Below are positions 26,688 to 52,149 of a DNA stretch of 64,000 nt, one piece after another; the first letter of the stretch is position 1, and each line of letters begins with the position of its first letter. Location of the stretch: contig NZ_LT629781.1 in NCBI RefSeq assembly GCF_900105685.1, positions 3,584,611-3,648,610 of the forward strand, read 5' to 3'. Source of the stretch: Verrucomicrobium sp. GAS474. GTDB taxonomy: Bacteria; Verrucomicrobiota; Verrucomicrobiia; Methylacidiphilales; GAS474. Under the pieces are notes generated by a model that was not told the DNA's origin, did no database searches, and was given only the letters and a program-made list of their open reading frames with translations. The position numbers and the translations under genes were made by a program.

Positions 26688-26753
26688 GATTCGAGCTTGC
26701 GAGCCACCCACCCGAACGTCCGCAATGACAAAAGTTCCAGCATGACCAGTAAA

Positions 26754-26769
26754 TCAAATCCGGTTTAGA
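26754..26769. promoter_or_regulatory. LacI-type regulon site 1 (SSS transporter)
   Basis: TCAAATCCGGTTTAGA, one departure from the consensus TCNNATYCGRATNNGA shared by nine sites in this window. Upstream of the SSS gene. Confidence 0.65.
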
Positions 26770-26832
26770 TAAAAACATTCCACCGAAAACAAAGCAAGCG
26801 CGGTTTCCAGTAGGAAGGCCGACGGCCACGAT

Positions 26833-26848
26833 TCTAATTCGGATTAGA
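26833..26848. promoter_or_regulatory. LacI-type regulon site 2 (serine hydrolase)
   Basis: TCTAATTCGGATTAGA, almost fully symmetric and a full consensus match, 47 bp before the ATG at 26896. Confidence 0.75.
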
Positions 26849-26895
26849 AAATAGGGTGCATTACGAAACGTCGCCGGATATATTTCCGCCACCCT

Positions 26896-29414: not shown

Positions 29415-31466
29415 TCAGGGAGAGGCCGTGGGAAGGGTGAACTGGAAGGGCGAGGCGGGCAGCCCCGAGGCGCCGTAGAGATTGCCCGTGGGGTTGTCGG
29501 CCCAGGCGTAGCGGACGGCGACGGGCTTCGCGACGGCGGGCGAGGAGACGACGACGGTCTCCCCCTCGATGCGCGCGTCGGCCCAGGCCCATTTCCGGTC
29601 GGCGCCGCAGAGCGCGAAGCCTTCCAGGTCCCCGTTCGGGCTGTGCCGGACGAGCGGCTTCCGCTCGGGGGCGAGGTAGGTGGGCTGATAATCGGCGGGG
29701 AGAGGCCGGGCGGCGAGCCCGCCTTCGGCAAAGCGGAAGCCGAGGATCACGTTCCCGCCGTCGGCCGTCGCCGATTGGCAGACCGGGCCGGAGAACGGGA
29801 GGTTCTTCCCGTAGAATCCGCCGAGCGCGGCGAGGGCGACGCGCTCCCCCACCGGCCTCTTGTCGGGCGGATGGACATCCTTTTCGCCGAGGTCGACCAG
29901 GACGACGCCGGCCGTCTTGGGCAGGGCGAGGGCCTCCAGCTGCGCCTGCCGGATCTCGGCCCAGCGGCTCTCGGCGGGGGTCTCCCCCTTCGGCCCGTAA
30001 TTGGGGAGCTGGCAGAGGACGAACGGGAGCTCCCTCCCCCAATGGCGGCGCCAGTCGCCGATGAGGACCTGGAGCATCTTCAGGTATTGGGCGCGCGGGC
30101 GGCCCGTGTCCTGCTCCCCCTGGTACCAGACGACGCCGGCGAGCGTCTCCTGCGCGAGGGGGGCGATCATCCCGTTGTAAAGCCGCCCCGCCACGTTCCG
30201 CGCGTCGGGCGCGCCGGGCACCTGCGGGCATTCCTGCCGCGCTGTGTCGGTCAGCGGCGGCAGCTCGAACTCGGCCTTGGCCTGCCACCCGTCGGCCAGC
30301 AGGGTGCGGGCCGTGCCGATGTCGAGGAAGGGAGCCGTCGAGAAGCCGCCCTTGTCGGTCGGCGTAAAGAGCCGGATCGCGAGGACGTTCGCCCCCTCGC
30401 GGGCGAGTTCCTTGGGAACGAGGTAGCGCCGCGTGTCGGACTTGCCGCCCGCCGTCGCCTCCGTCATGCCGCCGATCTTCTGGCCGTTCCAGTAGATCGC
30501 GTCGAAGTCGTGGGGCCCGCCGACGTCGAGCGAGAGGAGGCCCCCCGCCCCCGCGGCCGAGAGCGTCACCGTCCTCCGGAACCAGACCGCGCCCGCATCG
30601 GGCAGCCCGAGGTCCCGCTGGTTCCCCGGCAGGGAGACTTTCTTCCATCCCTGCTCCGAAGCGGCGTCGTCGAGGAACGGCGCGGGATCGGCCGCCTGGT
30701 CCTGGCGGCCCTGGGCCGCCTCCCAGAGGGGGAAGCGGGCGACGTAATCGGCCTTCTTCTGCGGATACTCGGCCTCCTGCTGGAGGCCGTGGTCGAGGAT
30801 CCCCTTCAGCTCGGGATCGGCCTGGAGCGACTCCTCGCTCGTCCACGCGGTCGCGACGGTCCCGGCCCAGGCCGAAAGGACGATGCCGACCGGGGCATCG
30901 AGCGTCTTCTGGAGATCCTTCGCGAAATAATAGCCGACGGCGCTGAACGCCGCCGCCGTCGCCGGGCTCGCGGCGACCCACGCGCCCCGGCACTCCTCGG
31001 CAGGCTCGCCCGCGCTCTTCGCGTCGACGCGGAACTGGCGGAGACGGGGATTGGCCGAATGGGCGATCTCCTCGGCTCCGCCCAGGGCGCGATTCAGCGT
31101 GTAGGCCATGTTCGACTGGCCCGAGCAGAGCCAGACCTCGCCCACCAGGACGTCGGAGACCGTCACCCGGTTCGCCCCCTCCACCGTCAGGTCGAAGGGG
31201 CCTTCCTTGCTGGAGGAGAGGTCGAGCGCGACCTTCCATCTGCCGTCGGCCCCGGTCGTCGCCTCGCCCCGGATTTCCCCCAAGGAGACTTTCACCTTCT
31301 CCCCCGGCTCCGCCTTCCCCCAGACGGCGGTGGACGCCGAACGTTGGAGGACGAGGTGGTCCGAGAGGACCGGGGGAAGGGTCACCGCGGCGCCCAGAGG
31401 CCCGGCGGAGAAGGCAAGGGCCCATGCCAGGAGGAACACTCCGGGCCTCGGTGGAAGGATCGGCAT
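29415..31466 (-). CDS. Secreted sialate O-acetylesterase-family protein (SASA)
   Basis: About 683 residues from the ATG at 31466, with a signal peptide (MPILPPRPGVFLLAWALAFS). A SASA/SGNH-type esterase: VWLCSGQSNMAYTL holds the catalytic GQSNM serine, and GVVWYQGEQD is the second block. An inserted jelly-roll-like segment lies in the middle (about 270-390). It removes O-acetyl groups from sugars in the periplasm or outside. First gene of a two-gene deacetylase operon; regulon site 3 starts 9 bp upstream of the ATG. Confidence 0.88.
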   Translation of the reverse strand: MPILPPRPGVFLLAWALAFSAGPLGAAVTLPPVLSDHLVLQRSASTAVWGKAEPGEKVKVSLGEIRGEATTGADGRWKVALDLSSSKEGPFDLTVEGANRVTVSDVLVGEVWLCSGQSNMAYTLNRALGGAEEIAHSANPRLRQFRVDAKSAGEPAEECRGAWVAASPATAAAFSAVGYYFAKDLQKTLDAPVGIVLSAWAGTVATAWTSEESLQADPELKGILDHGLQQEAEYPQKKADYVARFPLWEAAQGRQDQAADPAPFLDDAASEQGWKKVSLPGNQRDLGLPDAGAVWFRRTVTLSAAGAGGLLSLDVGGPHDFDAIYWNGQKIGGMTEATAGGKSDTRRYLVPKELAREGANVLAIRLFTPTDKGGFSTAPFLDIGTARTLLADGWQAKAEFELPPLTDTARQECPQVPGAPDARNVAGRLYNGMIAPLAQETLAGVVWYQGEQDTGRPRAQYLKMLQVLIGDWRRHWGRELPFVLCQLPNYGPKGETPAESRWAEIRQAQLEALALPKTAGVVLVDLGEKDVHPPDKRPVGERVALAALGGFYGKNLPFSGPVCQSATADGGNVILGFRFAEGGLAARPLPADYQPTYLAPERKPLVRHSPNGDLEGFALCGADRKWAWADARIEGETVVVSSPAVAKPVAVRYAWADNPTGNLYGASGLPASPFQFTLPTASP

Positions 31467-31474
31467 GGGAAAAT

Positions 31475-31490
31475 TCAAATTCGGATGTGA
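31475..31490. promoter_or_regulatory. LacI-type regulon site 3 (SASA operon / lacI divergent region)
   Basis: TCAAATTCGGATGTGA, a full consensus match between the SASA gene and the divergent LacI gene (ATG 31602). It can control both, including autoregulation. Confidence 0.75.
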
Positions 31491-31601
31491 TTTTGACCGA
31501 TCCTCCCTGCCGAGTCAAGCTTCCCCTTCCCCATCCGCATGGGAGCGCAGTTGACGTCCCCGCGACTCCCCTCCATTCTCGAGGCTGGCTTTTTCCGAAC
31601 C

Positions 31602-32684
31602 ATGCCCGCCCCCAAGCCCAAGTCCAAAACCCGGCCGCAGCCCAAGCGCCGGGCCGCTCCCGCCCGCATCGCGTCGACCGCCGACCTCGCCGCCCACCTC
31701 GGCCTCTCCGAGTGGACCGTCTCCCGCGCGATCAACGGCCACCCCGAGGTGAAGGAGGCGACCAAGGAGCGGATCCGCAAGGCGATGGAGGAGACCGGCT
31801 TCCGCCCGAACCCCGTGGCCCGCAGCCTCAACGGGAAGAAACTGGGCATCATCGGCGTCTGCTTCCGCCGCTCCCTCAGCCCGATGATCGCGGGGAAAGT
31901 GACCCTCCTCGACGAACACCTCCGCCGGCACGGCTTCCAGGCCCTTCTCTCGATCAATCGCCAGGACGAGGAGAACGAAATCCGGATCCTGGCCGGATTC
32001 CACCACCTCCGGGTCGATGGCGTCATCCTCGTCGAGACCTACCTGAATCCCGCCCAGATCGAGGGCGCGTTGCGCGCCACGCCCCGGGCCTACGTCGACC
32101 CCTCCCATCCGGAACTGTTCCCGAAAGTCTTCCTCGACCGGGCGCGGGCCATGCAGATGATCGTCGATCACCTCGTCGCCTCCGGACGGCCCTCCCTCGG
32201 CCTCCTCGGCTTTTCGAGCGGCCAGCATCGGCGCTGGGAAGGGCTGGCCAAAGCGTTCCGCGCCCACGGCCTCAACCTCAAGGAGCTCCCGATCTTCGAG
32301 CTCGGACAACCGGGCGGCGAATCCTACGCGGAGGGCATCGCCCTCGCCGAGGCGGCTCTGGCAGCCAGGGCAAACCGGCGGCTCCCTGCCGCCTTCATCG
32401 CGTTGAACGACCAGATCGCGACCGGCGCGATCCAGCGCTTCCAGGAGGCGGGACTCCGCGTGCCGGAAGACGTGGCCGTCGTCGGCTTCGACAACCTCGA
32501 CTCGGGCCGCTTCCTCAAGCCGACGCTGACCACGATCGACCAGCAGGCCGAGACGCTCATGAAACACGCCGTCTCGCTCCTCCTCGACCAGCTCGCGCGC
32601 CCCGGCGACGCCAAGCTCCGCGGACGCTCCGTCACCGTCGAGCCGGAGTTGATCGTCCGCATGTCGACCGGCGGCGCGGCCTGA
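31602..32684 (+). CDS. LacI-family transcriptional regulator 1
   Basis: 360 residues from the ATG at 31602. An N-terminal HTH (STADLAAHLGLSEWTVSRAI) follows a basic Pro/Lys-rich leader of about 20 residues, and a PBP1-type ligand-binding domain fills the rest (IIGVCFRR, then FIALNDQIATGAI and VVGFDNLDSGRFLKPTLTT). The recognition helix SEWTVSRAINGHPEVK is shared with the second LacI protein of this window. Probably senses a sugar released by the surrounding hydrolases. Confidence 0.93.
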   Translation: MPAPKPKSKTRPQPKRRAAPARIASTADLAAHLGLSEWTVSRAINGHPEVKEATKERIRKAMEETGFRPNPVARSLNGKKLGIIGVCFRRSLSPMIAGKVTLLDEHLRRHGFQALLSINRQDEENEIRILAGFHHLRVDGVILVETYLNPAQIEGALRATPRAYVDPSHPELFPKVFLDRARAMQMIVDHLVASGRPSLGLLGFSSGQHRRWEGLAKAFRAHGLNLKELPIFELGQPGGESYAEGIALAEAALAARANRRLPAAFIALNDQIATGAIQRFQEAGLRVPEDVAVVGFDNLDSGRFLKPTLTTIDQQAETLMKHAVSLLLDQLARPGDAKLRGRSVTVEPELIVRMSTGGAA

Positions 32685-32781
32685 GGCGTCCCCGCCCCGC
32701 AACTTCTCGGCGCCTCGCGACCTCCGGCACCCCCAAAGCGGCAAATGTCGCGCTTGACATTTCCACGGCTCGGATTAAAAA

Positions 32782-32797
32782 TCACATCCGAATTTGA
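32782..32797. promoter_or_regulatory. LacI-type regulon site 4 (LamG/SASA operon)
   Basis: TCACATCCGAATTTGA, 32 bp before the ATG of the LamG protein. Confidence 0.75.
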
Positions 32798-32829
32798 TTT
32801 TGCTTTTTTGGCAACAAAATCCCCTCCCC

Positions 32830-33648
32830 ATGAATCCCCCTTTTCCGGCCCGCCTCGGTCTCGGCCTTCTCCTCTTCCTGCCGCTCGGGGCGCGGGCGGA
32901 GCCTCCGGCCGACCCGATCCTGCGCTATGAGTTCAACGGCGGCTCCCAGCCCAAGGCCACCGAGGCCATCGGTTCGGGCGGAAGCCTCGCCGAAGCCTGG
33001 ATGAAGGGTGCCGACGGCCATCCCGCCCCCCTCTGGAGCCTCGACGGGGAGGGCGTCACCGGGCAACCCGGGGACTATGCCCTCGATCTGCGCGGCGCGA
33101 CGAGCATGGGGAACGAGGGTGCCGGCGGCTGTGCCGTCGTCCGCCACCCTCCCCTCGAAGGGATGAAGTCCTTCACCCTGACGGCCTGGATCAAAACGAC
33201 TTCGATGCCCAATCACGGTGCCCGGGTCTTCGACTATTCGGGGCCGAAAGCGGGATTCATCGCGAGCTTCGATGGGGGAAAACTCGCCCTCCAGGTCAAC
33301 GACCAGGGCCTCCGCTCCGAGAAGATCGTCTTCCCCGCCGCGAACGGCTGGGTCTTCCTCGCCATCACCTACGATTCGACCCGCGAGACCGACAACGTCG
33401 TCTTCTACCGGGGGGCCGACGGCGCCCTCGCCTCCGAGACGAAGACCCTCGCCCACCCCGAGGCCCCGGCCGAAAACACCGTGGGTTTCCTCTGCCTGGG
33501 GAACTGGGGAGCCGCCACCCGTCCGCTCCAAGGCCTCCTCGACAAGATAGCCGTCTACGGATCGCGCGCCGATGGATCGGGAGCCCTGAAGACCGACGAG
33601 ATCGAGGCCCTCTTCTCCTCCGTCACCCCCGCCCCGGTCGCCCCCTGA
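32830..33648 (+). CDS. Secreted LamG/concanavalin-like domain protein
   Basis: 272 residues from the ATG at 32830, with a signal peptide (MNPPFPARLGLGLLLFLPLG, cleaved near ARA). The mature part is one LamG-like jelly roll: FTLTAWIKTTSMPNHGARVF is the usual strand pair, and LQGLLDKIAVYGSRAD the last strands. These domains bind or act on polysaccharides. It is followed 65 bp later by a second SASA-type esterase on the same strand. Confidence 0.8.
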   Translation: MNPPFPARLGLGLLLFLPLGARAEPPADPILRYEFNGGSQPKATEAIGSGGSLAEAWMKGADGHPAPLWSLDGEGVTGQPGDYALDLRGATSMGNEGAGGCAVVRHPPLEGMKSFTLTAWIKTTSMPNHGARVFDYSGPKAGFIASFDGGKLALQVNDQGLRSEKIVFPAANGWVFLAITYDSTRETDNVVFYRGADGALASETKTLAHPEAPAENTVGFLCLGNWGAATRPLQGLLDKIAVYGSRADGSGALKTDEIEALFSSVTPAPVAP

Positions 33649-33713: not shown

Positions 33714-35309
33714 ATGAAATCCCGTCCTCCTTTCCCCATCCCGAAGACGGCGCAGGCCGCCCTCTTCGCCTGCGCCCTGGCGTTCCCTCCCTCGCTCTCG
33801 GAGGCCGTCACCCTCGCCGACATCTTCTCCGACCACGCCGTCGTCCAGCGGGGGGAAAAGACCCCCGTTTGGGGCACGGCCGCCCCGGGAGAAAAGGTCT
33901 CCGTCCATCTCGGCACGGCCTCGGCCGAGGCGACCGCCGGACCCGACGGCCTCTGGCGGACCGCCCTCGATCTCCGCAAGGAAGAGGACGGCCCCTTCGA
34001 CCTCGTCGCCGACGGGGCGGACGGGAAGACAGTCCGTTCCGACATCCTCGTCGGCGAGGTCTGGATCTGCGCCGGGCAGTCGAACATGCACTACCACCTC
34101 TCCGACTCGACGGGCGGAGCCGAGGAGGCGGCCCAGGCCTCCGATCCGAAGCTCCGCTTCCTGAACCTCGGCATGAAAGTCGCCGAAGCCCCCACGACCG
34201 CGATCCGGGACAAGTGGGCCGCCTGCGACGCCAAGAGCGCCGGTGCCTTCTCCGGCGTCGGGTACCACATGGGGAAGGTCCTGCGGGAACAGTTGAACAC
34301 GCCGGTCGGCCTCGTCGGGATCTCCTGGGCGGGGACGTGCATCGAGGCCTGGATGTCGCCGGAAGCCCTCTCCTCCGACGTCGATTTCAAGCCGATCCTC
34401 GACCGCTGGGAGAGGAAGCTGGCCGATTATCCGGCGAAGAAGGCCGAGTACGACCGGAACCGGGACGCCCTCCTCGCCGCCTGGCAGCAGGAGGCCGACA
34501 AGGCGAAGGCCGAGGGGAAGCCCGCCCCGTCGCGGGATTCGCTGGAGCCGCCCCACGGCGCGGGCTCGCTCGAAGAGCCTTCCGGACTCTTCCACGGGGA
34601 GGTCACCCCCGTCGCCCCCTACGGGATCGGCGGCATTCTCTGGTACCAGGGGGAACAGAACGTCGGCCGCGCCTTCCAGTACCGGAAGCTCCTTCCCGCC
34701 CTCATCGCCGATTGGCGGAAGCTCTGGGGCCGGGGCGATTTTCCCTTCGTCCTCGTCCAGCTCCCGAACTACGGGAAGCCCGAGACCCAACCCCGGTCGA
34801 ATAACTTCGCCGAGCTGCGCGAGGGTCAGGCCCAGGCGGCGGCCCGGCTCCCCAACGCCGCCCTCGTCGTCACGATCGACGTCGGCGAGGAAGGCAACAT
34901 CCATCCCAAGGACAAGAAGACCGTCGGCATCCGCGCCGGGCGGCTGATCGCGAAGGAGTTCTACGCCGCCCCCCTGCCCGGAGAGGTCCGGGGGCCGACG
35001 TTTCGGGACCTCGCCGTCGAGGGGGAAAGCCTCCGGGTCCGCTTCGACCACGCCGCCGGCCTCGCGACGAGCGACGGGCAGCCTCCGAGCGACTTCGCCG
35101 TCGCCGGGGCCGACGGCCGCTACGTCTGGGCCCAGGCCTCCATCGAGGGGGACGCCGTCGTCCTCCGGGCCCCGGGAATCCCCTCCCCGGCCACCGTCCG
35201 CTACGATTGGGCCGCCTCCCCCCGCGGGAACCTGCGCAACGGCGACGGCCTCCCCGCCGCCCCCTTCCGGACCGACTCCATGAAAGTCTCCACCGAAGGG
35301 ATCAACTAG
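33714..35309 (+). CDS. Secreted sialate O-acetylesterase-family protein 2
   Basis: 531 residues, with a signal peptide (about 1-28). SASA-type esterase: VWICAGQSNMHYHL carries the GQSNM serine, with ILWYQGEQNVGRAF and NYGKPETQPRSNNFAELREG in the conserved core. It is shorter than the 683-residue paralogue at 29415-31466 because it lacks the inserted middle domain. Same strand and operon as the LamG protein. Confidence 0.88.
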   Translation: MKSRPPFPIPKTAQAALFACALAFPPSLSEAVTLADIFSDHAVVQRGEKTPVWGTAAPGEKVSVHLGTASAEATAGPDGLWRTALDLRKEEDGPFDLVADGADGKTVRSDILVGEVWICAGQSNMHYHLSDSTGGAEEAAQASDPKLRFLNLGMKVAEAPTTAIRDKWAACDAKSAGAFSGVGYHMGKVLREQLNTPVGLVGISWAGTCIEAWMSPEALSSDVDFKPILDRWERKLADYPAKKAEYDRNRDALLAAWQQEADKAKAEGKPAPSRDSLEPPHGAGSLEEPSGLFHGEVTPVAPYGIGGILWYQGEQNVGRAFQYRKLLPALIADWRKLWGRGDFPFVLVQLPNYGKPETQPRSNNFAELREGQAQAAARLPNAALVVTIDVGEEGNIHPKDKKTVGIRAGRLIAKEFYAAPLPGEVRGPTFRDLAVEGESLRVRFDHAAGLATSDGQPPSDFAVAGADGRYVWAQASIEGDAVVLRAPGIPSPATVRYDWAASPRGNLRNGDGLPAAPFRTDSMKVSTEGIN

Positions 35310-35417
35310 CCCTCCTCCTAAGCAAAGACCCTCATAACAATCGGACCGTTTTTCGGATAGGATCAGGTCGCCCCAACCCGAGAGTTGCACTTGACTCTTC
35401 GCTTCATCCCGTCAAAA

Positions 35418-35433
35418 TCTAATCCGAATTTGA
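35418..35433. promoter_or_regulatory. LacI-type regulon site 5 (Verru_Chthon cassette)
   Basis: TCTAATCCGAATTTGA, 35 bp before the ATG of the first cassette gene. Confidence 0.75.
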
Positions 35434-35468
35434 TTTTGGCTTCCCGAAGGTCTCGATCAACACTTTCT

Positions 35469-38400
35469 ATGCCTTCAGCCACGGTTTTCTTCCACGGACG
35501 GCACGCCTCTTCCCGCCCTGTCCGCAGCTTCGCCCTGGTCCTCGTCCTCGGCTGCCTCGTCTTCCTCTCCGCCCTCGTCCTCGCCTTCCTCTCCGGGGTG
35601 ACGACGGAGCTCCAGTCCTCCCAATTCTACGCGAACGGCACGCAGGTGAAGCTCCTCGCCGACTCGGCCTCGAGCCTCGCCATGGGGCAGATCAGGGACG
35701 CCACCCACGGCGTCGATTCCTCCGGGACGACCCTCGCCTGGGCCTCCCAGCCCGGCATGATCCGCACCTACGGTACCAACGGCCAGCCGGCGGGCTACTA
35801 CAAGCTCTACTCCTGGGACAAGATGGTCGGCAGCGGGGCCTTCGACGCCTCCCAGTCCTCCGAGACGCCCCCCTCGGACTGGACGGGCAGCCCCGCCGTC
35901 TACGTCGACCTGAACGAGCCCGTCTACAAGAGCGCCCTCTCCGCCTACGTCTATCCCATCGTCGATCCGGCGGCGACAAACACCGTCCAGGGCTTCTCCA
36001 TCTCGAACGCGCCCGTGACGAAACTCGACGCCGCGCCGATGCCGGTGAAATGGCTCTACGTCCTCCAGAACGGGGCGCTCGCCTCCCCCACCGGGCACGG
36101 CTCGACGGTCGCCGTCGCCGGGGCCTCGAAGGACAACCCCATCGTCGGCCGCATCGCCTTCTGGACCGACGACGACACCTGCAAGGTGAACATCAACACC
36201 GCCGCCGGCGACGTCTGGTTCGACTCGGCCAATCCCCCCGCCGCAGGCTCCCCGGGAAACCCCGGCTCCTACTGGGACATCCCCCGTTTCAACTCGACCT
36301 ACGAGAAAACCTGCCTCGCCAGCAACCAGCCCGCCCAGGACGAATACCAACGCTATCCCGGCCACCCGGCCACCACCTACCTCAGCGCGGTCTTCACCAA
36401 CCTCACCGCGACGAACCTCTACCAGATCGCGCCGCGCGTGACCTACGGCGGCTCCAAGGGCGGCAGCGTCGTCGCCACCACCAACGTCACGATCGACAAC
36501 GACCGCCTCTACGCCTCGGTCGACGAGCTCCTCTTCGCCACGAACCGCGGGACGAACCCGACCCTGACGGCGAAGTCGGTCGAGCAGGCGAAGTTCTTCC
36601 TCACCGCCCACAGCCGCGCCCCCGAGGTGAACCTCTACAACCAGCCCCGCGTCCTCATCTGGCCCGTCAGCGCCCGCTCCGGTGCCGCCAACCGCAGCGC
36701 CTTCGACAGCCTCGTCGCCTACTGCGGCACGCTCAACAACAGCATCTACTACTTCCAGCGCGCCAACTCGAACTCCCCCGCCGCCGACCTCCCCATCACT
36801 CCCACCCCCACCGGCGTCGGCCGGAACCGCGCCCTCATCTCCTACCTGCGCGGCCTCACGGACAAGCCCGTCCCCGGCTTCGGCGACGCCTTCGTCAGAA
36901 AGTACCCGAACGACCGGGACCAGATCCTCACCGAGATCTTCGACTACATCCGCTCCGCCAACGCCCAGGACATGTCGACGACTCCCTTCTCCGGCACGAA
37001 CAAAGCCGTCGGAGGGCAGGGCCAGATCGTCCCCATCCTGGACACCGTCCATTCGGACCAGAACAGCAACACGCTGCGCGGCTTCGGCCGTTTCCCGACC
37101 ATCCGCGAGGCGGGCCTCCTCTTCGTCGGCGTCGGGCAGACGAAGACCGTCTCCGGCACCACCTACTACAGCTACCCCCCCTACAGCACCAACGGCGTCC
37201 CGGCCCTCAACAACGCCATCTACCCCACGCAATCCCCGGCCTTCACCTCCTCCGGCGTCGCCATCCCCGGCGGCACCCCCATCGCCGACGGGTTCACCCG
37301 CGTCCAGACCGTCTTCTTCGCGAACTTCTTCGACCCCAGCCAGGGTTGGTCGAGCACCACGCCCGACTTCCAGGTCCAGATCACCGGCCTCGACGGCCTC
37401 AAGTGGGGCATCCTCGCCCCCACCTCCGGCATGGGCTTCCTGTCGACCGCCACCCTCGCCGTCAAGAAGACGGCGAATCAGGCCGCCCCCGTCGGCATCT
37501 ACGGCGGCTACAAGGGGGCGGCCCTCTTCGTCACCTCGCAGGGGATCAACACCGCGATCAGCGGGTGGATCGATCTGCCCACGAGCGGCACCTTCCATTT
37601 CGGCGGGGCGAGCCTGCAGGTGAAGATCCTCGATTCGGCCGGGACGACGGTCCTGCAGACCATCAATCTCACCTTCCCCTCCTCGATCTTCCCCGTTCCC
37701 GGCCTCGCCCCCTCCCTCGCCGACGCCGGCATCCCCGCCTCCGGCATTCCCGCCCTGACGATGGATTTCCGGAACTTCGGCGGACCGACGGTCACGACCA
37801 CGACGCCCCGGACGGGCTCCCGCTTCTTTGGCGTGACGAACTCGACCTATTCGGTCTACTCCCGGACGTGGCTCACGCGGACCGACGTCGTCCGGACCCT
37901 CGAGGCGAACACCGATCCCCGCCTGATCGCCGCCAGCGCCAGCGTCCCCTCCAGCGCCTTCAGCCCGATCGAGCCCCAGTACGACGACGCGACGGTCCCC
38001 GCGGCCCACGGGCTCTTCGAGGCCCTGAACTCCGGCGGCGGCTACACCTTCTCCGGAACCATGGTCGGCAAGCTGGTCCCGAACGTCGTCTACACCTCCG
38101 TCCTTCCCACCACCTTCCCCATCACCAACGACGGCTACGCCGTCAGCGGCACGACGACCGACCATCTCCAGCCCATCTTCACGGGCAACTCCACCTCGGG
38201 CGGGAACGATCCCGTCGCCTTCGGGGTGAGCGGCGGCCAATGCGTCCCCGCCAACGGCGTCTACGCCGGAACGAACCAAACCGGCACCGGCCTTTCCGCC
38301 CCGCCCGGCGACTGGGACAACGGCTTCAGCATCGTCCCCGACGGCGCCTTCATCAACAAGGCCGACGAGGGCGTGACCACCGTCGGAACCCCCTATTTCT

Positions 38401-39272
38401 CCAACCTCAACGCCTACATCGGCACCGGCACCACCCTCTTCTCCCCCAACCGGCAGATCCCCTCGCCCGTGATGTTCGGCTCCCTGCCGACGGGGGTGAA
38501 CGCGAACCGCCCCTGGCAGACGCTCCTCTTCCAGCCCGACCCGGGCGGGAACCCCCAGCACATCGGCGCGCAGAGCCCCGCCGACCACCTCCTCCTCGAC
38601 CTCTTCACGATGCCCATCGTCGAGCCCTATCCGATCAGCGACCCCCTCTCGATCGCGGGCCGCGTCAACATGAACTACCAGATCGTCCCCTTCACCTACA
38701 TCACCCGGAGCACGGGCGTCCGCGCCGTCCTGAAGCCGGAACAGATCGTCGCCCTCTCGAACAGCGATTCGACCGCCTACAAGAACTCGAACCTGAACCT
38801 CACCGGCCGCCGCCTCTTCCTCGACCTCGACAAGACCCTGACCGGATTCCAGACCCGCTTCGCCTCGGGGGACATCTTCCGCTCGGCGAGCGAGATCTGC
38901 GGCCTGTGGCTCGTCCCGCAGGGCCAGACCTACGCCGGCATGCCGACCTTCTGGGCCTCGCGCCGCCTCACCGGGGACAACAGCCGGGAGCGCCCCTACG
39001 CCGACATCTATCCGCGCCTGACGACGAAATCGAACACCTACACCATCCACGTCCGCGTCCAGACCCTGAAGAAGAGCGTCGCCACCGACCCCGCCTCGTG
39101 GACCGAGAACAGCGACACCGTCACCGGGGAATACCGCGGCTCGACGACCGTCGAGCGCTACATCGACACCGCCAACACCAGCCTCCCCGACTACGCCACC
39201 GCCGCCAATCCCGCCCCCCTCGACACGTTCTACAAGTTCCGCGTCGTCGAGACGAAGCAGTTCACCCCATGA
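35469..39272 (+). CDS. Verru_Chthon cassette protein A
   Basis: 1267 residues from the ATG at 35469. One N-terminal hydrophobic helix (about residues 21-43, FALVLVLGCLVFLSALVLAF), then a very long Ser/Thr/Gly/Ala-rich, Trp- and Tyr-containing extracytoplasmic region. Size, start pattern and the three pseudopilin-like genes that follow identify protein A of the four-gene Verru_Chthon cassette of Verrucomicrobiota. It resembles a giant PilX/GspK-type minor pseudopilin. Function unproven; a secretion or surface-assembly role is inferred. Stop overlaps gene B by 4 nt (ATGA). Confidence 0.85.
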   Translation: MPSATVFFHGRHASSRPVRSFALVLVLGCLVFLSALVLAFLSGVTTELQSSQFYANGTQVKLLADSASSLAMGQIRDATHGVDSSGTTLAWASQPGMIRTYGTNGQPAGYYKLYSWDKMVGSGAFDASQSSETPPSDWTGSPAVYVDLNEPVYKSALSAYVYPIVDPAATNTVQGFSISNAPVTKLDAAPMPVKWLYVLQNGALASPTGHGSTVAVAGASKDNPIVGRIAFWTDDDTCKVNINTAAGDVWFDSANPPAAGSPGNPGSYWDIPRFNSTYEKTCLASNQPAQDEYQRYPGHPATTYLSAVFTNLTATNLYQIAPRVTYGGSKGGSVVATTNVTIDNDRLYASVDELLFATNRGTNPTLTAKSVEQAKFFLTAHSRAPEVNLYNQPRVLIWPVSARSGAANRSAFDSLVAYCGTLNNSIYYFQRANSNSPAADLPITPTPTGVGRNRALISYLRGLTDKPVPGFGDAFVRKYPNDRDQILTEIFDYIRSANAQDMSTTPFSGTNKAVGGQGQIVPILDTVHSDQNSNTLRGFGRFPTIREAGLLFVGVGQTKTVSGTTYYSYPPYSTNGVPALNNAIYPTQSPAFTSSGVAIPGGTPIADGFTRVQTVFFANFFDPSQGWSSTTPDFQVQITGLDGLKWGILAPTSGMGFLSTATLAVKKTANQAAPVGIYGGYKGAALFVTSQGINTAISGWIDLPTSGTFHFGGASLQVKILDSAGTTVLQTINLTFPSSIFPVPGLAPSLADAGIPASGIPALTMDFRNFGGPTVTTTTPRTGSRFFGVTNSTYSVYSRTWLTRTDVVRTLEANTDPRLIAASASVPSSAFSPIEPQYDDATVPAAHGLFEALNSGGGYTFSGTMVGKLVPNVVYTSVLPTTFPITNDGYAVSGTTTDHLQPIFTGNSTSGGNDPVAFGVSGGQCVPANGVYAGTNQTGTGLSAPPGDWDNGFSIVPDGAFINKADEGVTTVGTPYFSNLNAYIGTGTTLFSPNRQIPSPVMFGSLPTGVNANRPWQTLLFQPDPGGNPQHIGAQSPADHLLLDLFTMPIVEPYPISDPLSIAGRVNMNYQIVPFTYITRSTGVRAVLKPEQIVALSNSDSTAYKNSNLNLTGRRLFLDLDKTLTGFQTRFASGDIFRSASEICGLWLVPQGQTYAGMPTFWASRRLTGDNSRERPYADIYPRLTTKSNTYTIHVRVQTLKKSVATDPASWTENSDTVTGEYRGSTTVERYIDTANTSLPDYATAANPAPLDTFYKFRVVETKQFTP

Positions 39273-39781
39273 GCGCCTCCCTCCGGCATCCCCGCTCGTC
39301 GGCCCTGCCCCCCGGGCCAAGCCAATCGGCTTCCGCCGGTTCCAGTGTCGCTTGCGCGACGGCTTTCTCCCTCGTCGAGGTCCTCCTCGCCCTCGGCATC
39401 GTCAGCTTCGCCCTCATCGGCCTGATGAGCCTCCTCCCCGTCGGCCTGAAGACCTTCCACCAGGCCGACATGACGACCACCGAGACCCAGATCGCCCAGA
39501 CCCTCGTCAACCGCCTCCAGCTCTCCGGCTTCACGAACGCCCTCGGCGGGGGCAACGCCTCCTACTACTTCACCTCGGAAGGGCAGCCCACTGCCGACCG
39601 CGGCGGCCAGAACACCCTCTACACCGTCACCGTGACCGCCGCGACCAACGTCGCCCTCCCCGGCGCGGCCGGCGGCAGCCACTCCGCGAACATCCTCTCC
39701 CTCCTTTTTTCCATCACCTGCAAGACCGCACCCCAGACGACCAATGTCATCCCGGCCTACATCTCCAACAACGGTTCGTGA
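39269..39781 (+). CDS. Verru_Chthon cassette protein B (pseudopilin-like)
   Basis: 170 residues. After a 30-residue leader comes a type IV prepilin N-terminal motif, AFSLVEVLLALGIVSFALIG, with the Glu at +5 after the expected cleavage site. The globular part is small. Translationally coupled to gene A (ATGA overlap) and overlapping gene C by 38 bp. Confidence 0.85.
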   Translation: MSASLRHPRSSALPPGPSQSASAGSSVACATAFSLVEVLLALGIVSFALIGLMSLLPVGLKTFHQADMTTTETQIAQTLVNRLQLSGFTNALGGGNASYYFTSEGQPTADRGGQNTLYTVTVTAATNVALPGAAGGSHSANILSLLFSITCKTAPQTTNVIPAYISNNGS

Positions 39782-40838
39782 CCCGCTGACGGCCCGGGCC
39801 CGCGCCCGGGGGAGCCGGGCCTTCAGCCTGGTCGAGATCCTCGTCGCCTCCGTCGTCCTCCTCATCATCATGGCGATGCTCACGATCCTCGTCGGCCAGA
39901 CGGGGAAGGTCTGGAAGAAGACGACCGCGAAGATCGAGGCCTTCCAGAACGCCCGCGCCGCCTACCAGACGATGACGGCCCGCCTGAGCGGGGCGACGCT
40001 CAACACCTACCTCGACTACTACGACGCCTCCTACGCCCGCCGCACCCCGGCGAACAGCGCCACCTTCGCCCCCGTCTACTACGCCCGCGCCTCCGACCTC
40101 CACTTCGTCGCCGACCGCGGCTCCGTCCTCCTGCCCGACGGCGACGGGAGCGCCCATCCCGGGAGCGCCGTCTTCTTCCAGGCCCCGCTCGGCTACGCCT
40201 CCAGCTCCGCCTACGCGGGCATGCCGAACGCCCTCAACGCCTGCGGCTACTACGTCGCCTTCGAGGCCGAGCAGACGCTTCCCTCCTTCCTCCAGAACCT
40301 GACGAAGGTCCGCTACCGCTACCGCCTCCTGGAGTTCCTCCAGCCGACCGACTCCTTCGCCCTCTACACGACGCCCTCCTCCGGGAGCAATCCCTCGGCC
40401 TACGAGGCCTGGTTCCGTTCGTTCCTCCCCCCCGCCGTCTCCCGCACGAAGGCCCCGCTGCGCGTCCTGGCGGAAAACATCGTCGCCCTCGTCGTCCTGC
40501 CCCAGCTTTCCCCCCTCGACTCCGGGACCGAGCTCTCCCCGGCCTACTCCTACGATTCCCGTGCGGGCAACATCCAGACGGCGACCTACAACCAGCTTCC
40601 GCCCCTGCTGCGCGTCGTCATGATCGCCCTCGACGAGCCCTCGGCCCAGCGGCTCTCCCCCGACGGCGAATCGACGCAACCCGGCGTCGTCACCGCCGCC
40701 CTGAACGGACGGTTCCAGTCTTCGTCCCAGCTGAACGCCGACATCGCCTCCGTCACCCGCGCCTTCGACGAAAACCACCTCTCCTACCGGGTCTTCGACA
40801 GCGTCATCGCCATCCGGGGCGCGAAATGGAGCCAATAA
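39744..40838 (+). CDS. Verru_Chthon cassette protein C (pseudopilin-like)
   Basis: 364 residues. Prepilin motif AFSLVEILVASVVLLIIMAM after about 25 residues, then a GspJ-like minor-pseudopilin body. Overlaps the end of gene B by 38 bp. As in other cassettes it is the longest of the three pilin-like members. Confidence 0.85.
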   Translation: MSSRPTSPTTVRDPLTARARARGSRAFSLVEILVASVVLLIIMAMLTILVGQTGKVWKKTTAKIEAFQNARAAYQTMTARLSGATLNTYLDYYDASYARRTPANSATFAPVYYARASDLHFVADRGSVLLPDGDGSAHPGSAVFFQAPLGYASSSAYAGMPNALNACGYYVAFEAEQTLPSFLQNLTKVRYRYRLLEFLQPTDSFALYTTPSSGSNPSAYEAWFRSFLPPAVSRTKAPLRVLAENIVALVVLPQLSPLDSGTELSPAYSYDSRAGNIQTATYNQLPPLLRVVMIALDEPSAQRLSPDGESTQPGVVTAALNGRFQSSSQLNADIASVTRAFDENHLSYRVFDSVIAIRGAKWSQ

Positions 40839-40844
40839 AGAGCC

Positions 40845-41507
40845 ATGCATCCACTCCCCACGATCCCCTCCCGCCGCTCCGCAGGGGCCTTCAGCCTGAT
40901 CGAGCTCCTCATCGTCATGGCCATCATGGGGACGCTCGCCCTGATGGCCCTGCCCGCGTTCAACCGGGTCGTCACCGCCTCGAACCTCTCGTCGGGCGGC
41001 CGCGCCCTCGTCGACCAGATCAATCTCGCCCGCCAGACCGCGATGGCGCGGAGCAGCCAGGTCGAGTTTCGCCTCTACAGGTTGCCGGACGCCTCCCTTC
41101 CCGGGAGCCAGTCCCCCGCCCAATACCGGGCTTTCCAGGCGTTCGTCATCACCCAGGGAGGAACGGCAACCAACGCCGTGGCGCGGCCCATCTTCCTGCC
41201 CAAGTCGATCATCTTCCTCGCCTCGCCCTCCGTCTCATCGCTCCTCCCGGAAGCTCCGGGAACCGCTCCGGCCCTCGTCTCGGGCGAGCGGGCGGGGACG
41301 CGCTTCAACGGATACCAGCCGTCGGCATACGATTACATGGTCTTCCACTTCAACCCCGACGGGAGCACCGACCTCGATCCGACGGCGAGCTGGTACATCA
41401 GCCTCGCCTTCGAGAAGGCCCCGCTGGGGGCGAACGGCGTCCCCTCCGATTTCATCACGATCCAGATCGATCCGCTCAGCGGGCGGGCCCGGTCGTTCCG
41501 GCCCTGA
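40845..41507 (+). CDS. Verru_Chthon cassette protein D (pseudopilin-like)
   Basis: 220 residues. Prepilin motif AFSLIELLIVMAIMGTLALM at about residues 16-35, then a GspH/FimT-like body. Starts 6 bp after gene C. Its 3' end overlaps the convergent nucleoside hydrolase gene by 32 bp. No prepilin peptidase, ATPase or secretin is encoded nearby, so the cassette must use machinery from elsewhere. Confidence 0.85.
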   Translation: MHPLPTIPSRRSAGAFSLIELLIVMAIMGTLALMALPAFNRVVTASNLSSGGRALVDQINLARQTAMARSSQVEFRLYRLPDASLPGSQSPAQYRAFQAFVITQGGTATNAVARPIFLPKSIIFLASPSVSSLLPEAPGTAPALVSGERAGTRFNGYQPSAYDYMVFHFNPDGSTDLDPTASWYISLAFEKAPLGANGVPSDFITIQIDPLSGRARSFRP

Positions 41508-42450
41508 GGCGGGGCGGCCTGCACATCAGCTCCTCGATCTCCCGGCAAAGGGATTCGGAAGCCATTTTGGGAACGAGATGGGCATGGGGTCCGTCCGGAG
41601 CATCGCCCCACTGAGTCCGCCCCCCGGCGTCGACCCGGCAGCGCCCCCGCCGCAGGGACCAGTATTCCCCTGCCCCCCGGACAGCACAGAGGATCGCCGT
41701 CTGATCCCAACTCGAACGCCCCGTTTCGAGCGCGTTCTCCCACAGGCGATAACTTTCCCGGACCGGATTCCCCGGAGGCGTTTCCCGAAGACCCGGGCCA
41801 GTCCGCAAAGGCAAGCCGATCTCGTAGCCCGAAAAGACAATCGGCGTCGGCCATCCCTCCACGAGGGAGGCTGAGTAGGCGGCCGCGCCGTTCCTGCCGA
41901 AATTCCATCCCGCCTTCTCCTCGACGGGAAAGGAACCCCCCATCGCCACCCAGACGTCGACCTTCCGCCGAATCAACTCATGCCCCGAAAGCGGGCTCTC
42001 CCCGTCCGGACCCGAGAAGAGCAGATCGTGCAGGCCCCGCGTATGTCCGATGGAGACGATCCGGGCGCTCCCGTCCGGAAGCGCCGCCAGCACCCGGCGA
42101 TAGACGGTGAGCAACGAAGGGAACTCCCCCCGCTCCGAAGCCCCATGCCCGTAGAGGGCGCGGTTCGTCGCGATCGGTTCGAGAAAATCGTTCCGGGGAT
42201 CGCCAAGGTCGCTTTCAGCCGCCGTGCCGATCGGCACATCCGGCCGTCCGTAATAGGCATTGATCGCCGCGAGGCACCCCGGCCCGTAACGATTCCGGCC
42301 CGAGCTGTAGAGGCAGGCCGCGATTTCGGCTTCGCCCGCATCGGCCAAGGCATGCAGCACCGCCAACGCCCCGGCATCGTCGCAATCGGAACCGAGGTCG
42401 GTGTCGACGAGGATCGGAACCGGGACGCGGCGCGTTTCCAGGAAGGACAT
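41476..42450 (-). CDS. Inosine/uridine-preferring nucleoside hydrolase-like protein
   Basis: 324 residues. Calcium-binding motif near the N-terminus is DTDLGSDCDDAGALAVLHAL, with the DxDxxxDD arrangement of the family, and a later WDQTAILCAV segment supplies the distal acidic residue. It cleaves N-glycosidic bonds of nucleosides or a related compound. It follows the PEP-CTERM protein by 10 bp in a shared unit, unusual for a salvage enzyme; a role on another ribosyl or N-linked sugar substrate is possible. Confidence 0.8.
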   Translation of the reverse strand: MSFLETRRVPVPILVDTDLGSDCDDAGALAVLHALADAGEAEIAACLYSSGRNRYGPGCLAAINAYYGRPDVPIGTAAESDLGDPRNDFLEPIATNRALYGHGASERGEFPSLLTVYRRVLAALPDGSARIVSIGHTRGLHDLLFSGPDGESPLSGHELIRRKVDVWVAMGGSFPVEEKAGWNFGRNGAAAYSASLVEGWPTPIVFSGYEIGLPLRTGPGLRETPPGNPVRESYRLWENALETGRSSWDQTAILCAVRGAGEYWSLRRGRCRVDAGGRTQWGDAPDGPHAHLVPKMASESLCREIEELMCRPPRLRAGTTGPAR

Positions 42451-44599: not shown

Positions 44600-44601
44600 A
44601 A

Positions 44602-44617
44602 TCTAATTCGGATGTGA
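44602..44617. promoter_or_regulatory. LacI-type regulon site 6 (PEP-CTERM unit)
   Basis: TCTAATTCGGATGTGA, separated by only 2 bp from the ATG at 44599. Confidence 0.75.
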
Positions 44618-44660
44618 TTTTTATTCAAATGAGAGAACGCGGAGACGGCGGGAGGGGAAA

Positions 44661-44676
44661 TCTAACTCGAATGTGA
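44661..44676. promoter_or_regulatory. LacI-type regulon site 7 (PEP-CTERM unit)
   Basis: TCTAACTCGAATGTGA, 59 bp from site 6 start to start (about 5.6 helical turns). Two sites in tandem may allow looping or graded control. Confidence 0.7.
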
Positions 44677-44728
44677 TTATACAAAAACCAAGGCGGAGTG
44701 TCAATGGTCGTATTTCCACTCAGGCGAA

Positions 44729-45793
44729 CTAGGATCGAGACGCGGGACCGGTCGATTCCCTCACCATCAGCCTGGGCTCAACGTGCAGGCGCTTCCGGGA
44801 AGACCCGGCCGGCTTGCCGAGGACGCCGAGAAGGAGCTCTCCCACCCGTTGCATCAGCATCTCGGGCTGCTGGTTGATCGTCGTGAGCGTCGGCAGGAGG
44901 TGGCTTCCGATGTCGAGGTCGTCGAATCCGACGACGGAGAGATCCCGGGGAACGGCGATGCCGCCGCGAACCAGGGTCTGGATGGCTCCGATGGCGATGC
45001 GGTCGTTGAGGGCGATTACCGCCGTGGGGCGCTTCGCCGCCTTCTTTCCCTTCGCCTTCAGTCGCCGGGCGAGGCGTCCCGCCAACTCGACGCCTTCGAC
45101 GAAGGATTCATGCCCCGCCTGTTCGAGCTCGAACGTCTCCAGGCTCCGATCGGGATCGAGCCCGTGGGCGGCCAGGGCGGAGCGCACGCCGTTCCAGCGG
45201 ACCGCGCTCGTCGGTCCGAAGCCGAGCAGGGCGAAGGACCGGTGGCCGAGCCCGACGAGATGATCGACGATCAGGCGCATCGCCGCGCCCCGGTCCATGG
45301 TCACGGAAGGAAACAGCTCCGGCTCGGCGGGATCGACGTGGACGCAACGCATCCCGTCGCTCAGGCGGGAGAGAGCCTTGGCCCCCAGGAAGGACTGGAT
45401 GAGGACGACGCCGTCGACCCTCATGTGACGGAAATCGGAGAGGATCCTCCCCTCGCTCGCCTCGTCCCGGTGGCTGATGGAAAGGACACCCCGCAGTTGG
45501 TACGCATGAAGGAAGCGGTCGAGCGAGGCGATCTTTTCGATCATCACCGCGTTCCGGGGGTCGCCGAAGCAGACGCCGACCACCCCCATCGCCTTCCCGT
45601 TCAGCCCGCGCGCCACCGGATTCGGACGGAAGCCGACCTCCTCCATCGCCTGGAGGATCCGCTCCCGCGTCGCGGCCTTCACCTCCGGATGGCCGTTGAT
45701 CGCCCGCGAGACCGTCCACTCGGAGATCCCGAGGTAACGGGCCAGATCGACCGTCGAGGCGATCCGGGGCGGGGCGGGAGGGAGCGGGGGCAT
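44729..45793 (-). CDS. LacI-family transcriptional regulator 2
   Basis: 354 residues. The HTH STVDLARYLGISEWTVSRAI is nearly the same as in regulator 1, and the hinge NPVARGLNGKAMGVVGVCF is closely related. Ligand domain FIALND-like motif (VIALNDRIAIGAIQ) and VVGFDDLDIGSHLLPTLTT. It sits between the GH4 gene (24 bp upstream) and sites 6 and 7. The two regulators should read the same operator but may sense different sugars. Confidence 0.93.
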   Translation of the reverse strand: MPPLPPAPPRIASTVDLARYLGISEWTVSRAINGHPEVKAATRERILQAMEEVGFRPNPVARGLNGKAMGVVGVCFGDPRNAVMIEKIASLDRFLHAYQLRGVLSISHRDEASEGRILSDFRHMRVDGVVLIQSFLGAKALSRLSDGMRCVHVDPAEPELFPSVTMDRGAAMRLIVDHLVGLGHRSFALLGFGPTSAVRWNGVRSALAAHGLDPDRSLETFELEQAGHESFVEGVELAGRLARRLKAKGKKAAKRPTAVIALNDRIAIGAIQTLVRGGIAVPRDLSVVGFDDLDIGSHLLPTLTTINQQPEMLMQRVGELLLGVLGKPAGSSRKRLHVEPRLMVRESTGPASRS

Positions 45794-45817: not shown

Positions 45818-47209
45818 TTATGCGGGAAGCAGCGCCTCGGTCTTCGCGCCGTGCCGCACCGGCTGGGAGAAGAACTGGGGCAGGAGCCCCGCATTCGCCT
45901 CCAGCAGCTCGTCGAGCATCGTGGCGATCTCCCGGATGTCGTTGTTGTTGTTCAGTGGATCGGCGAGCATCGCCTGGAGGGCCTTCTCCCGGCTCCCCTC
46001 GATGGCCGCATCGACGGTGAGATCCTGGATCAGGCAATGCTTGTGGACGAGGGCGAGGATCGGGGCGGGCAGGGAGCCGCTGGCGTGGGGGACGAGGCTC
46101 CCGCCCACGACGGTCGCCAAGGTCTCCACCGACGAGCCGAGGGGGAGGTTCGCCACCTGCCCCTGATTCGGCAGCGTCACCGGCTGGACCGTCGCCGGCC
46201 CGTCCGAAAGGAGGGAGGCCAGGATCGGAGCGAGGGACTCGCTCGACGGCTTGAGCGGCACCGAGGCCGGATCGTCGTTCGTCCATTCGGCGATCCGCTC
46301 CTTGAAGTAGCCGATCCACTTGTGGCGGCGGTCGTCGATCGAGGTGAGCTCGACGCCGAAGGCCGCGCCGTACTCGGTCTTCTTCGAGAGGAAGTAGGGG
46401 AAGAATTCGGCGAGATGGCGGTCCCCCGGGTAGGGGACGAGGCCATAGGTCTCGAAGAGGTGGAACTTGAGCTTGTTGCTGTGGACCGAGTCGCTCAGGT
46501 TCACCGCGTTTCCGCCGCCCCCCGCCGAGGAGGGATCGGCCAGGCGCTCGCGGAGCAACCGGAGGCCGTCCCGGCCGTTGACCTTGAGTTCGGTGACCCA
46601 GGCGAAGTGATTGATCCCGGCGATCGTCGCCGAGACCTCCTTCTCCCAGTCGCCGAGGCCGAGGAGCGCCTCGACGGAGGACATGAAGCTCTTGAACTCG
46701 TGGCAGAGGCCGACGACCTTGATCGAGCTCGTCCGGTGGACGGCCCGGACGATCTGGTCCATCGGGTTCGTGAGGTTCAGGAGCCAGGCCTCGGGGCAGA
46801 GGCGCTCCATCTTCCGGGCCAGCGAGACGACCACGGGGACGTTCCGCAGCGTCCGGGAGATGCCGCCGGGCCCCGTCGAATCGCCGACGGGCTGATAGAT
46901 GCCGTACTTCTTCGGAATCTCGATGTCGTGCTCCATGGCGTCGAGGCCGCCCGTCGAGATGCAGAGGATGACGGCATCGGCCCCCTCGAGGGCGCGGTCG
47001 AGGCTCGCCTCGACCTCGACGGCGACGCCCGACTTCACCTTCCGCCCGATCGTCCGGCAGACGCCCGCCAGCTCGGCATTGCGCCCCGCGTCGATGTCGT
47101 GGAGGACGAAGCGGGAAGCCTGGAGATGGGAATTGACGGCGATGTCCCGGAAAAGGACCGGGACCCATTGGTAGCTGCCGCCGCCGATGAAGGTGATTTT
47201 TTTGCTCAT
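45818..47209 (-). CDS. Glycoside hydrolase family 4 (alpha-galactosidase/glucuronidase type)
   Basis: 463 residues from the ATG at 47209. N-terminal NAD-binding GGGSYQWVP, then NPMDQIVR and the metal-site GLCHEF (Cys-His), with NHFAWV after it; these define GH4, which uses NAD+ and a divalent metal in an oxidation-elimination mechanism. Substrate group (alpha-galactosides, alpha-glucuronides or 6-phosphosugars) cannot be fixed from sequence; no PTS genes are near, so non-phosphorylated substrates are likelier. Upstream region carries site 8; the LacI gene follows by 24 bp. Confidence 0.9.
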   Translation of the reverse strand: MSKKITFIGGGSYQWVPVLFRDIAVNSHLQASRFVLHDIDAGRNAELAGVCRTIGRKVKSGVAVEVEASLDRALEGADAVILCISTGGLDAMEHDIEIPKKYGIYQPVGDSTGPGGISRTLRNVPVVVSLARKMERLCPEAWLLNLTNPMDQIVRAVHRTSSIKVVGLCHEFKSFMSSVEALLGLGDWEKEVSATIAGINHFAWVTELKVNGRDGLRLLRERLADPSSAGGGGNAVNLSDSVHSNKLKFHLFETYGLVPYPGDRHLAEFFPYFLSKKTEYGAAFGVELTSIDDRRHKWIGYFKERIAEWTNDDPASVPLKPSSESLAPILASLLSDGPATVQPVTLPNQGQVANLPLGSSVETLATVVGGSLVPHASGSLPAPILALVHKHCLIQDLTVDAAIEGSREKALQAMLADPLNNNNDIREIATMLDELLEANAGLLPQFFSQPVRHGAKTEALLPA

Positions 47210-47311
47210 GGGAAAACGGCCCAAAAAAAGGGCCAGGGAATGACGCATCGTTTGTTTTTCGGGGCCGTCCTTGAAAACCGCTCTTGCGGAATCGCCCCGT
47301 CCCCCCAATAA

Positions 47312-47327
47312 TCACATTCGGATTAGA
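47312..47327. promoter_or_regulatory. LacI-type regulon site 8 (GH4 / beta-helix divergent region)
   Basis: TCACATTCGGATTAGA, between the GH4-lacI unit and the divergent beta-helix gene (ATG 47365). Confidence 0.75.
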
Positions 47328-47364
47328 TTTTTTCAATCAAATAATCGTCCCCTTTCGCAATTCC

Positions 47365-52065: not shown

Positions 52066-52075
52066 CCGGATGTGA
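52060..52075. promoter_or_regulatory. LacI-type regulon site 9 (beta-helix/GH130 unit and GH106-like gene)
   Basis: TCTCATCCGGATGTGA. The site overlaps the ATG at 52065 of the minus-strand gene and is 74 bp from the plus-strand ATG at 52150, so it may serve both. Confidence 0.75.
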
Positions 52076-52149
52076 AACTGACTTAATACGGCGAATATGT
52101 CAATGACATCGATTGAAATGATCCACCTCATCAGATAACGACTTTCCCC

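Follow-up and report, generated by a model that had tools for sequence, protein, structure and literature searches.

A Verru_Chthon pseudopilin cassette in a LacI-type glycan regulon: a possible sugar-controlled tip set of a type IV filament machine

Verrucomicrobiota are major polysaccharide degraders. What might four prepilin-type genes of a family without assigned function do in the midst of a glycan regulon of one of them? The question is raised by the stretch of DNA analyzed here (the window), 64,000 nucleotides of the single 3.76 Mb contig of Verrucomicrobium sp. GAS474 (positions 3584611-3648610). In it a Verru_Chthon cassette, genes A to D, occupies 35469-41507 on the plus strand, the genes overlapping or abutting; coordinates without a locus or contig label are window positions. 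An earlier note, made from the letters of this DNA, took the cassette for a pseudopilus-like device that exports or surface-mounts glycan-degrading proteins in response to sugar. Our literature search returned no mention of the Verru_Chthon cassette by name or accession.

The analysis makes it likely that the cassette forms the tip complex of a type IV filament machine. In the explanation that we favor, it would be an alternative minor-pseudopilin tip set, with D corresponding to GspH, B to GspI, C to GspJ and A to a giant GspK, made only when a sugar frees the operator from the local LacI repressor. On the shared type II secretion machine, or possibly on the type IV pilus machine, the set would prime a pseudopilus and so adapt this machine to proteins of the same regulon. 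Its most likely job would be the transport of PEP-CTERM/PATR surface proteins and glycan-active enzymes, either across the outer membrane or onto it, and each of the ~15 cassettes of the genome would serve one polysaccharide regulon as its tip. The full statement, a sugar-controlled alternative tip set including export of regulon proteins, is tentative, and we place it somewhat short of an even chance. What is new is the consistent placement of the cassettes under sugar regulons and their H-I-J-K-like make-up, the gene family itself being already known; here the family is set under a defined operator.

The cassette and its operator

All four adjacent genes exceeded the curated cut-offs of their NCBIfam families (TIGR02600, TIGR02598, TIGR02599 and TIGR02596; Table 1), which bears out the four-gene cassette of the earlier note. 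The start proposed there, 35418, falls within the operator and not in a gene; the first gene begins at 35469. The operator AATCTAATCCGAATTTGATT, at 35416-35435, is a full match to the pattern AATCNNATNCGNATNNGATT. Palindromes of the AATCNNATNCGNATNNGATT form stand also at 31473, 32780, 44600, 44659 and 47310, and weaker copies lie at 26752, 26831 and 52058. With two mismatches or fewer the pattern was matched 9 times in the window (0.25 expected), and a search for AAATCAAATTCGAATTTGATTT with 3 mismatches gave 3 matches (0.00 expected). Throughout the 3.76 Mb genome exactly 6 operator sites were found at one mismatch or fewer, all of them inside the window, and the reversed control pattern gave 0 sites genome-wide at one mismatch or fewer. 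The generic LacI consensus TGNAANCGNTTNCA was rejected as the site of the regulon; neither of its 2 genome occurrences is in the window.

A TTGAC[A/T] hexamer lies 25-26 bp before 5 of the 9 sites and points to the downstream gene, at 31473(-), 32780(+), 35416(+), 44659(-) and 52058(-). Random positions averaged 0.01 in the control for this spacing, and 0 of 5000 draws reached 5. Because 35416 is among these five, the cassette has its own promoter, directed into the cassette with the operator at the -10/start region, and similar in build to the promoters that serve the SASA esterase, LamG and PEP-CTERM genes and one beta-helix gene. The earlier claim of an operator common to the cassette and the neighboring hydrolases is thus sustained by the pattern matches, their genome-wide exclusivity and the -35 geometry. 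The glycan regulon around the cassette proved wider than claimed: it takes in two SASA esterases, a LamG gene, a beta-lactamase-fold hydrolase, the SSF symporter, AXE1, GH4, GH130, two beta-helix genes and the PEP-CTERM gene.

Features of LacI-type regulons are present here, namely an adjacent LacI gene, a palindrome at several promoters and a fixed -35 spacing, and we infer that a LacI repressor binds these predicted operators and is released by sugar. As judged from its genes, the content of the regulon suggests an acetylated plant-type polysaccharide. No susC/susD (TonB receptor/SusD) pair was found among the window genes scanned or in the top families of the flanks.

Similarity to minor pseudopilins and the machines of the cell

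B, C and D bear class III (prepilin) signals with glutamate at +5 (AFSLVE, AFSLVE and AFSLIE, respectively). The N-terminus of A in the window, VRS^FALVLVL, is without Glu5, as in a K-type subunit, and the listed A proteins, which read G^[F/I/M/S/V]AL, are all without Glu5. Against the NF037980 model of GspK, A scored E=0.0013, and D scored E=2.8e-6 against the GspH model. When the cassette profiles were aligned with those of the core pseudopilins (hhalign), A matched the GspK N-terminus with a probability of 88% (E 3e-6) and G, H, I and J at 19% or less. J was the best match of C (91%), with G and H also matched, D matched H and G (96%), and B was ambiguous. Across the phylum the GspK model matched A-type proteins (1000-1600 amino acids) with E down to 2e-10, only over positions 2-83; the GspK homology is confined to the first ~60-95 residues of A and does not run along the whole protein.

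For the AlphaFold model of C (predicted local distance difference test score, pLDDT, 88) the only plausible solved relatives were TTHA1219 and EpsJ (probability 0.87-0.96, marginal E of 0.02-0.09), and TTHA1219 is itself GspJ-like (PMC5131608). A was modeled from residue 69 on (pLDDT 82; predicted template modeling score 0.88). Its lectin and Ig-like fold matches (probability 0.03-0.2) were too weak and were not used. Profile searches of the PDB gave none for A or C, and for D only general type IV pilin N-termini. General family scans, which did not include a genome-wide search with a PilY1 model, gave no PilC/PilY1 family match in A. By sequence and predicted structure, the giant A combines an N-terminus of GspK type with a body that has no matched fold. 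The GspK-, GspJ- and GspH-type similarities support the pseudopilus-like device of the earlier note.

The minor pseudopilins GspH/I/J/K of the type II secretion system (T2SS) are likewise four prepilin-type proteins, three with Glu5 and a larger one without (PMC6211770; PDB 3CI0, 2RET), and the likeness extends to the apparently GspJ-like C and the GspK N-terminus of A. In contrast to GspK, A is ~4 times larger and its body is unmatched; in contrast to the GspHIJK genes, the cassettes lie apart from gspC-M genes, ~15 sets beside a complete core T2SS. Assembly and secretion both need tip pseudopilins (PMC6211770).

A single T2SS locus (GspG, H, I, J, K, D, E and F), complete with its own tip set, is present in the home genome. 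The genome also has a separate set of the type IV pilus type, PilB/PilC-type and PilM/N/Q-like loci, and one exosortase. Only two GspF/PilC genes are present in the genome, both outside the cassettes, and the platform, ATPase, secretin and core tip are encoded at loci other than the cassettes. A secretin gene (L121, G000:C1:1115000-1134900, at 8541-10724 of the locus) lies near two prepilin-type genes (2774-4020), with a large PEP-CTERM protein at 14583-17342, and may belong to a further dedicated system. A strong GspG was found in 7/7 genomes with full cassettes, yet also in 166/241 genomes, and strict T2SS dependence was not inferred from this co-occurrence, which is weak since strong GspG is so widespread.

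Recurrence in sugar regulons

The home genome was read in stretches around matches and in 20 control stretches. Cassette genes of the same families, adjacent to each other, are multicopy in it: the A model matched 17 stretches, which make up 15 cassette loci, and A was above its cut-off in 7 of the 15. Ten of the 13 LacI genes of the genome lie within 10 kb of a cassette, against 1.3 expected (binomial P ~3e-8); with the window left out, the count is 8 of 11 (binomial P 9e-7). The loci without a LacI gene (L036, L028, L030 and L026) appear, from their sequences, to have GntR-, ROK-, IclR- or AraC-like regulators. PEP-CTERM motifs were within 10 kb of a cassette in 17 of 29 cases (2.7-2.9 expected; P 2e-10). 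A PEP-CTERM gene stands within 10 kb of 14 of the 15 cassettes, and in the fifteenth (L027) a PATR protein is the first gene of the operon. Among 108 flank genes, Pfam families included PEP-CTERM (10), LacI (7), MFS sugar transporters (7), GH5 (5), PATR (5), GH2 (3), GH28 (3) and CBM9 (3); these families were absent from the 25 commonest families of 111 control genes from the 20 other stretches. With one machine and ~15 extra tip sets, each with a sugar regulon, tip exchange is the simplest reading. The recurrent PEP-CTERM/PATR partners fit export, because other surface proteins that are sorted by their C-terminus, those with GlyGly-CTERM and MYXO-CTERM, pass the outer membrane via the T2SS (PMC11980579). 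It was in Verrucomicrobium spinosum that PEP-CTERM was originally noticed (PMC1569441).

Two irregular copies of A were seen in the home genome. In L031 (G000:C1:1230900-1233994) the A gene is split across two frames, which means that it is inactivated or else decoded by frameshifting, and at G000:C1:2000528-2000722 an extra GspK-like N-terminus heads a 1099-amino-acid open frame, which may be a sixteenth gene of the A type, beyond the cassettes listed.

Scanning GTDB genomes yielded 79 cassette loci from Verrucomicrobia, 56 of them with good flanks, and a LacI-type regulator lay within ~8 kb in 24 of these 56. Among the nearest neighbors in these genomes (n=108) the most frequent families were the LacI ligand domain (9), LacI (8), PATR (6), PEP-CTERM (5), GH130 (4), MFS_2 (4) and AXE1 (4). 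To find shared palindromes, the promoter of each cassette was compared with further promoters of its locus. At 16 bp, 10 of 94 loci (~2 expected) exceeded the threshold, which was the 98% level of a cross-locus control; among those that have a regulator are the window, L137, L127, L128, L029 and L033. In L137 the palindrome precedes the LacI gene, B and the next gene, and in L029 it lies in the interval from LacI to B and also precedes two neighboring genes. A blind search of the 14 other home loci for palindromes of 20 bp in common turned up little, as several operators fall short of that length; the comparison at 16-18 bp with the cross-locus control recovered some. The earlier note had named cassettes elsewhere without a carbohydrate or LacI link as evidence against it. 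The outcome was in its favor: the link is kept in in-genome paralogues and in other genomes, where sugar-gene neighbors recur and several loci share a local palindrome; the operators differ among loci.

A-like giants without B-D were noted in other families of the phylum (L078, L079, L081, L085, L087 and L088), where the next gene encodes a probably secreted protein of ~220-250 amino acids. The home cassette L032 combines this form with the B-D form, and its copy of the small protein (L032:5544-6266) had no NCBIfam family match.

Table 1. Cassette, predicted operators and regulon genes in the window
Feature	Position	Strand	Basis
Protein A, 1267 amino acids, giant, GspK-like, without Glu5	35469-39272	+	TIGR02600, 946.9 bits (cut-off 332.3)
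Protein B, prepilin-type (AFSLVE), GspI/PilV-like N-terminus (alignment)	39269-39781	+	TIGR02598, 67.6 bits (cut-off 51.4)
Protein C, prepilin-type (AFSLVE), GspJ-like	39744-40838	+	TIGR02599, 280.4 bits (cut-off 256.5)
Protein D, prepilin-type (AFSLIE), GspH-like	40845-41507	+	TIGR02596, 130.9 bits (cut-off 70)
-35 box TTGACT of cassette promoter	35391-35396	+	25 bp before operator; same geometry at four other regulon sites
LacI-type operator before cassette, AATCTAATCCGAATTTGATT	35416-35435		Pattern match and -35 spacing
Operator before SASA esterase 29415-31478(-)	31473-31492		Pattern match and -35 spacing
Operator before LamG-domain gene and SASA esterase	32780-32799		Pattern match and -35 spacing
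Operator abutting start codon of PEP-CTERM gene	44600-44619		Pattern match
Second operator of PEP-CTERM gene; TTGACA 26 bp upstream	44659-44678		Pattern match and spacing
Operator between GH4 gene and beta-helix (DUF1565) gene	47310-47329		Pattern match
Weaker operator between SSF symporter and beta-lactamase-fold gene	26752-26771		2 mismatches
Weaker operator, same SSF symporter/beta-lactamase-fold intergenic region	26831-26850		Palindrome comparison
Weaker operator before beta-helix gene 49624-52131(-); TTGACA at 26 bp	52058-52077		Pattern match and spacing
LacI-family regulator 1	31539-32684	+	PF00356 and PF13377
LacI-family regulator 2	44729-45793	-	PF00356
SSF sodium:solute symporter	24732-26711	-	PF00474
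AXE1 acetyl esterase	28077-29399	-	PF05448
SASA acetylesterase	29415-31478	-	PF03629
Secreted LamG (Laminin_G_3) protein	32830-33648	+	PF13385
SASA acetylesterase directly upstream of cassette	33714-35309	+	PF03629
PEP-CTERM Ser/Thr/Gly-rich surface protein, 712 amino acids	42461-44599	-	PF07589; TIGR02595
GH4 glycosidase	45818-47209	-	PF02056
GH130 phosphorylase/hydrolase	48597-49589	-	PF04041
Beta-helix protein, 835 amino acids	49624-52131	-	PF13229

Downstream of the cassette, a reverse-strand gene (41476-42450) runs tail to tail into the end of D, with 32 bp of overlap; it looks nucleoside-hydrolase-like by eye and has no Pfam match.

Export, capture and other readings

Several observations weigh against the sugar-controlled tip set as we propose it. 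The first concern A itself, which has Ser at -1 in the window instead of Gly/Ala, and whose soluble part gave no significant fold match in the PDB (GspK 3ci0 ranked 26th, E=1.2). The LacI link is also not universal: 32 of the 56 well-flanked loci elsewhere have no LacI-type regulator within ~8 kb, and loci of the Verrucomicrobium type pair the cassette with a giant PATR protein instead. The export part of the earlier claim fared less well than its pseudopilus-like part. An enrichment of the operon neighbors in secreted cargo was tested and failed, signal peptides being present in 30% and 28% of cassette-adjacent genes and in 29% of the other genes of the same loci, and several cassette neighbors are inner-membrane sugar importers. 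Finally, genomes of an Akkermansia-like genus (g5) hold A-like long frames though most are without a GspK match, so that the T2SS is not strictly required. Examples from this genus (G033:C1:243541 and G229:C1:846539) are small genomes with open frames of ~1350-1400 amino acids that have an A-type N-terminus.

These Akkermansia-like frames suggest that A-type giants can work with a pilus machine, and they bear on the strongest alternative, in which the cassette would cap a type IV pilus or pseudopilus with a glycan-binding tip, the giant A; the filament would extend, bind a specific polysaccharide and, on retraction, draw the glycan to or into the periplasm. Competence pili draw in DNA by comparable extension, binding and retraction, and the capture device would be the glycan counterpart of these DNA-uptake pili. 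We consider glycan capture unlikely but a serious contender, as it accounts for the data almost as well as export does. Glycan uptake in Verrucomicrobiota is selfish, and in Akkermansiaceae a type IV-like pilus locus, MUL2, has been implicated (PMC13174399). The home genome has the pilus-type loci described above, sugar importers are frequent among the cassette neighbors, and A, at several times the size of GspK, has room for a binding body. Set against this are the lack of a supported carbohydrate-binding fold in A (lectin matches had a probability of 0.03) and its N-terminus of GspK type, and the strong PEP-CTERM/PATR association is left unexplained. The broader form of this alternative, in which ~15 sugar-controlled interchangeable tips on one shared filament machine would capture and draw in specific polysaccharides, standing in for SusC/D in Verrucomicrobiota, is in our judgment rather improbable.

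The PATR/PEP-CTERM association could also be taken as the whole of the matter, with the cassette as an assembly or display apparatus for these surface proteins alone, serving an adjoining large beta-solenoid protein, and sugar regulation as secondary. A large Gly/Ser/Thr/Asn-rich gene was immediately upstream and co-directional in 7/30 cases, versus 13/339 (P=4e-4), and in a group of Verrucomicrobium-like genomes a PATR protein of ~1000-2500 amino acids directly precedes A (L070, L071, L150, L168 and L172). Most cassettes have no such gene immediately beside them, and hydrolases and transporters are equally frequent as neighbors; we regard this reading as quite improbable. In one of these genomes, Verrucomicrobium sp. 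BvORR106, a near-perfect palindrome, GAACATATGTTC (L172:457-476 and 14365-14384), stands ahead of the giant PATR-A-B-C-D operon; it is repeated elsewhere in the locus and is LexA-box-like rather than LacI-like.

That the cassettes travel with glycan loci without a functional tie to sugar use, as their multicopy state and variable gene order (ABCD, BCAD, BCDA and DBCA) might allow, is very doubtful because the -35/operator spacing is conserved, the cassette promoter of the window bearing the regulon operator at the spacing of the other promoters, and because different operators are shared in other loci and the association persists across genomes. Gene order varies even within one locus, L183, where two cassettes in tandem (B-C-A-D and D-B-C-A) lie inside the same 20 kb.

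Exchangeable, sugar-controlled tip sets, the explanation that we favor, can be compared with three known systems. The nearest published lead is Verruconatronum alginivorum, where a pseudopilin gene similarly lies within a polysaccharide cluster: a pulG-like pseudopilin (gene 000050), which has 67 homologues in that genome, is part of its alginate-induced cluster, and another pseudopilin showed over-expression on alginate in a proteome with one replicate per condition (PMC13274419). It differs in having a single PulG-like (major-type) pseudopilin and no four-gene H-K-like set, and in its regulator. MUL2 of Akkermansiaceae is likewise a Verrucomicrobiota type IV-filament machine tied to glycan attachment and uptake, but it holds assembly proteins (PilM and others) rather than minor pilins A-D and does not occur in many regulon-specific copies (PMC13174399). 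The alternative PilY1/minor-pilin tips of Myxococcus are likewise paralogous parts for the tip of a single pilus machine, and a dedicated regulator controls the expression of one set; the cassette differs in being without PilY1, and in Myxococcus the regulation is not described as being by sugar repressors.

The finding bears on how Verrucomicrobiota export enzymes and import long glycans without SusC/D pairs. If a shared machine is indeed re-tipped for each polysaccharide under dedicated repressors, a family without an assigned function would gain one, and the pseudopilin expansions in the phylum would be explained in part. It would also provide a substrate-to-tip key, in which each regulator, together with its enzymes, would indicate the glycan of its cassette.

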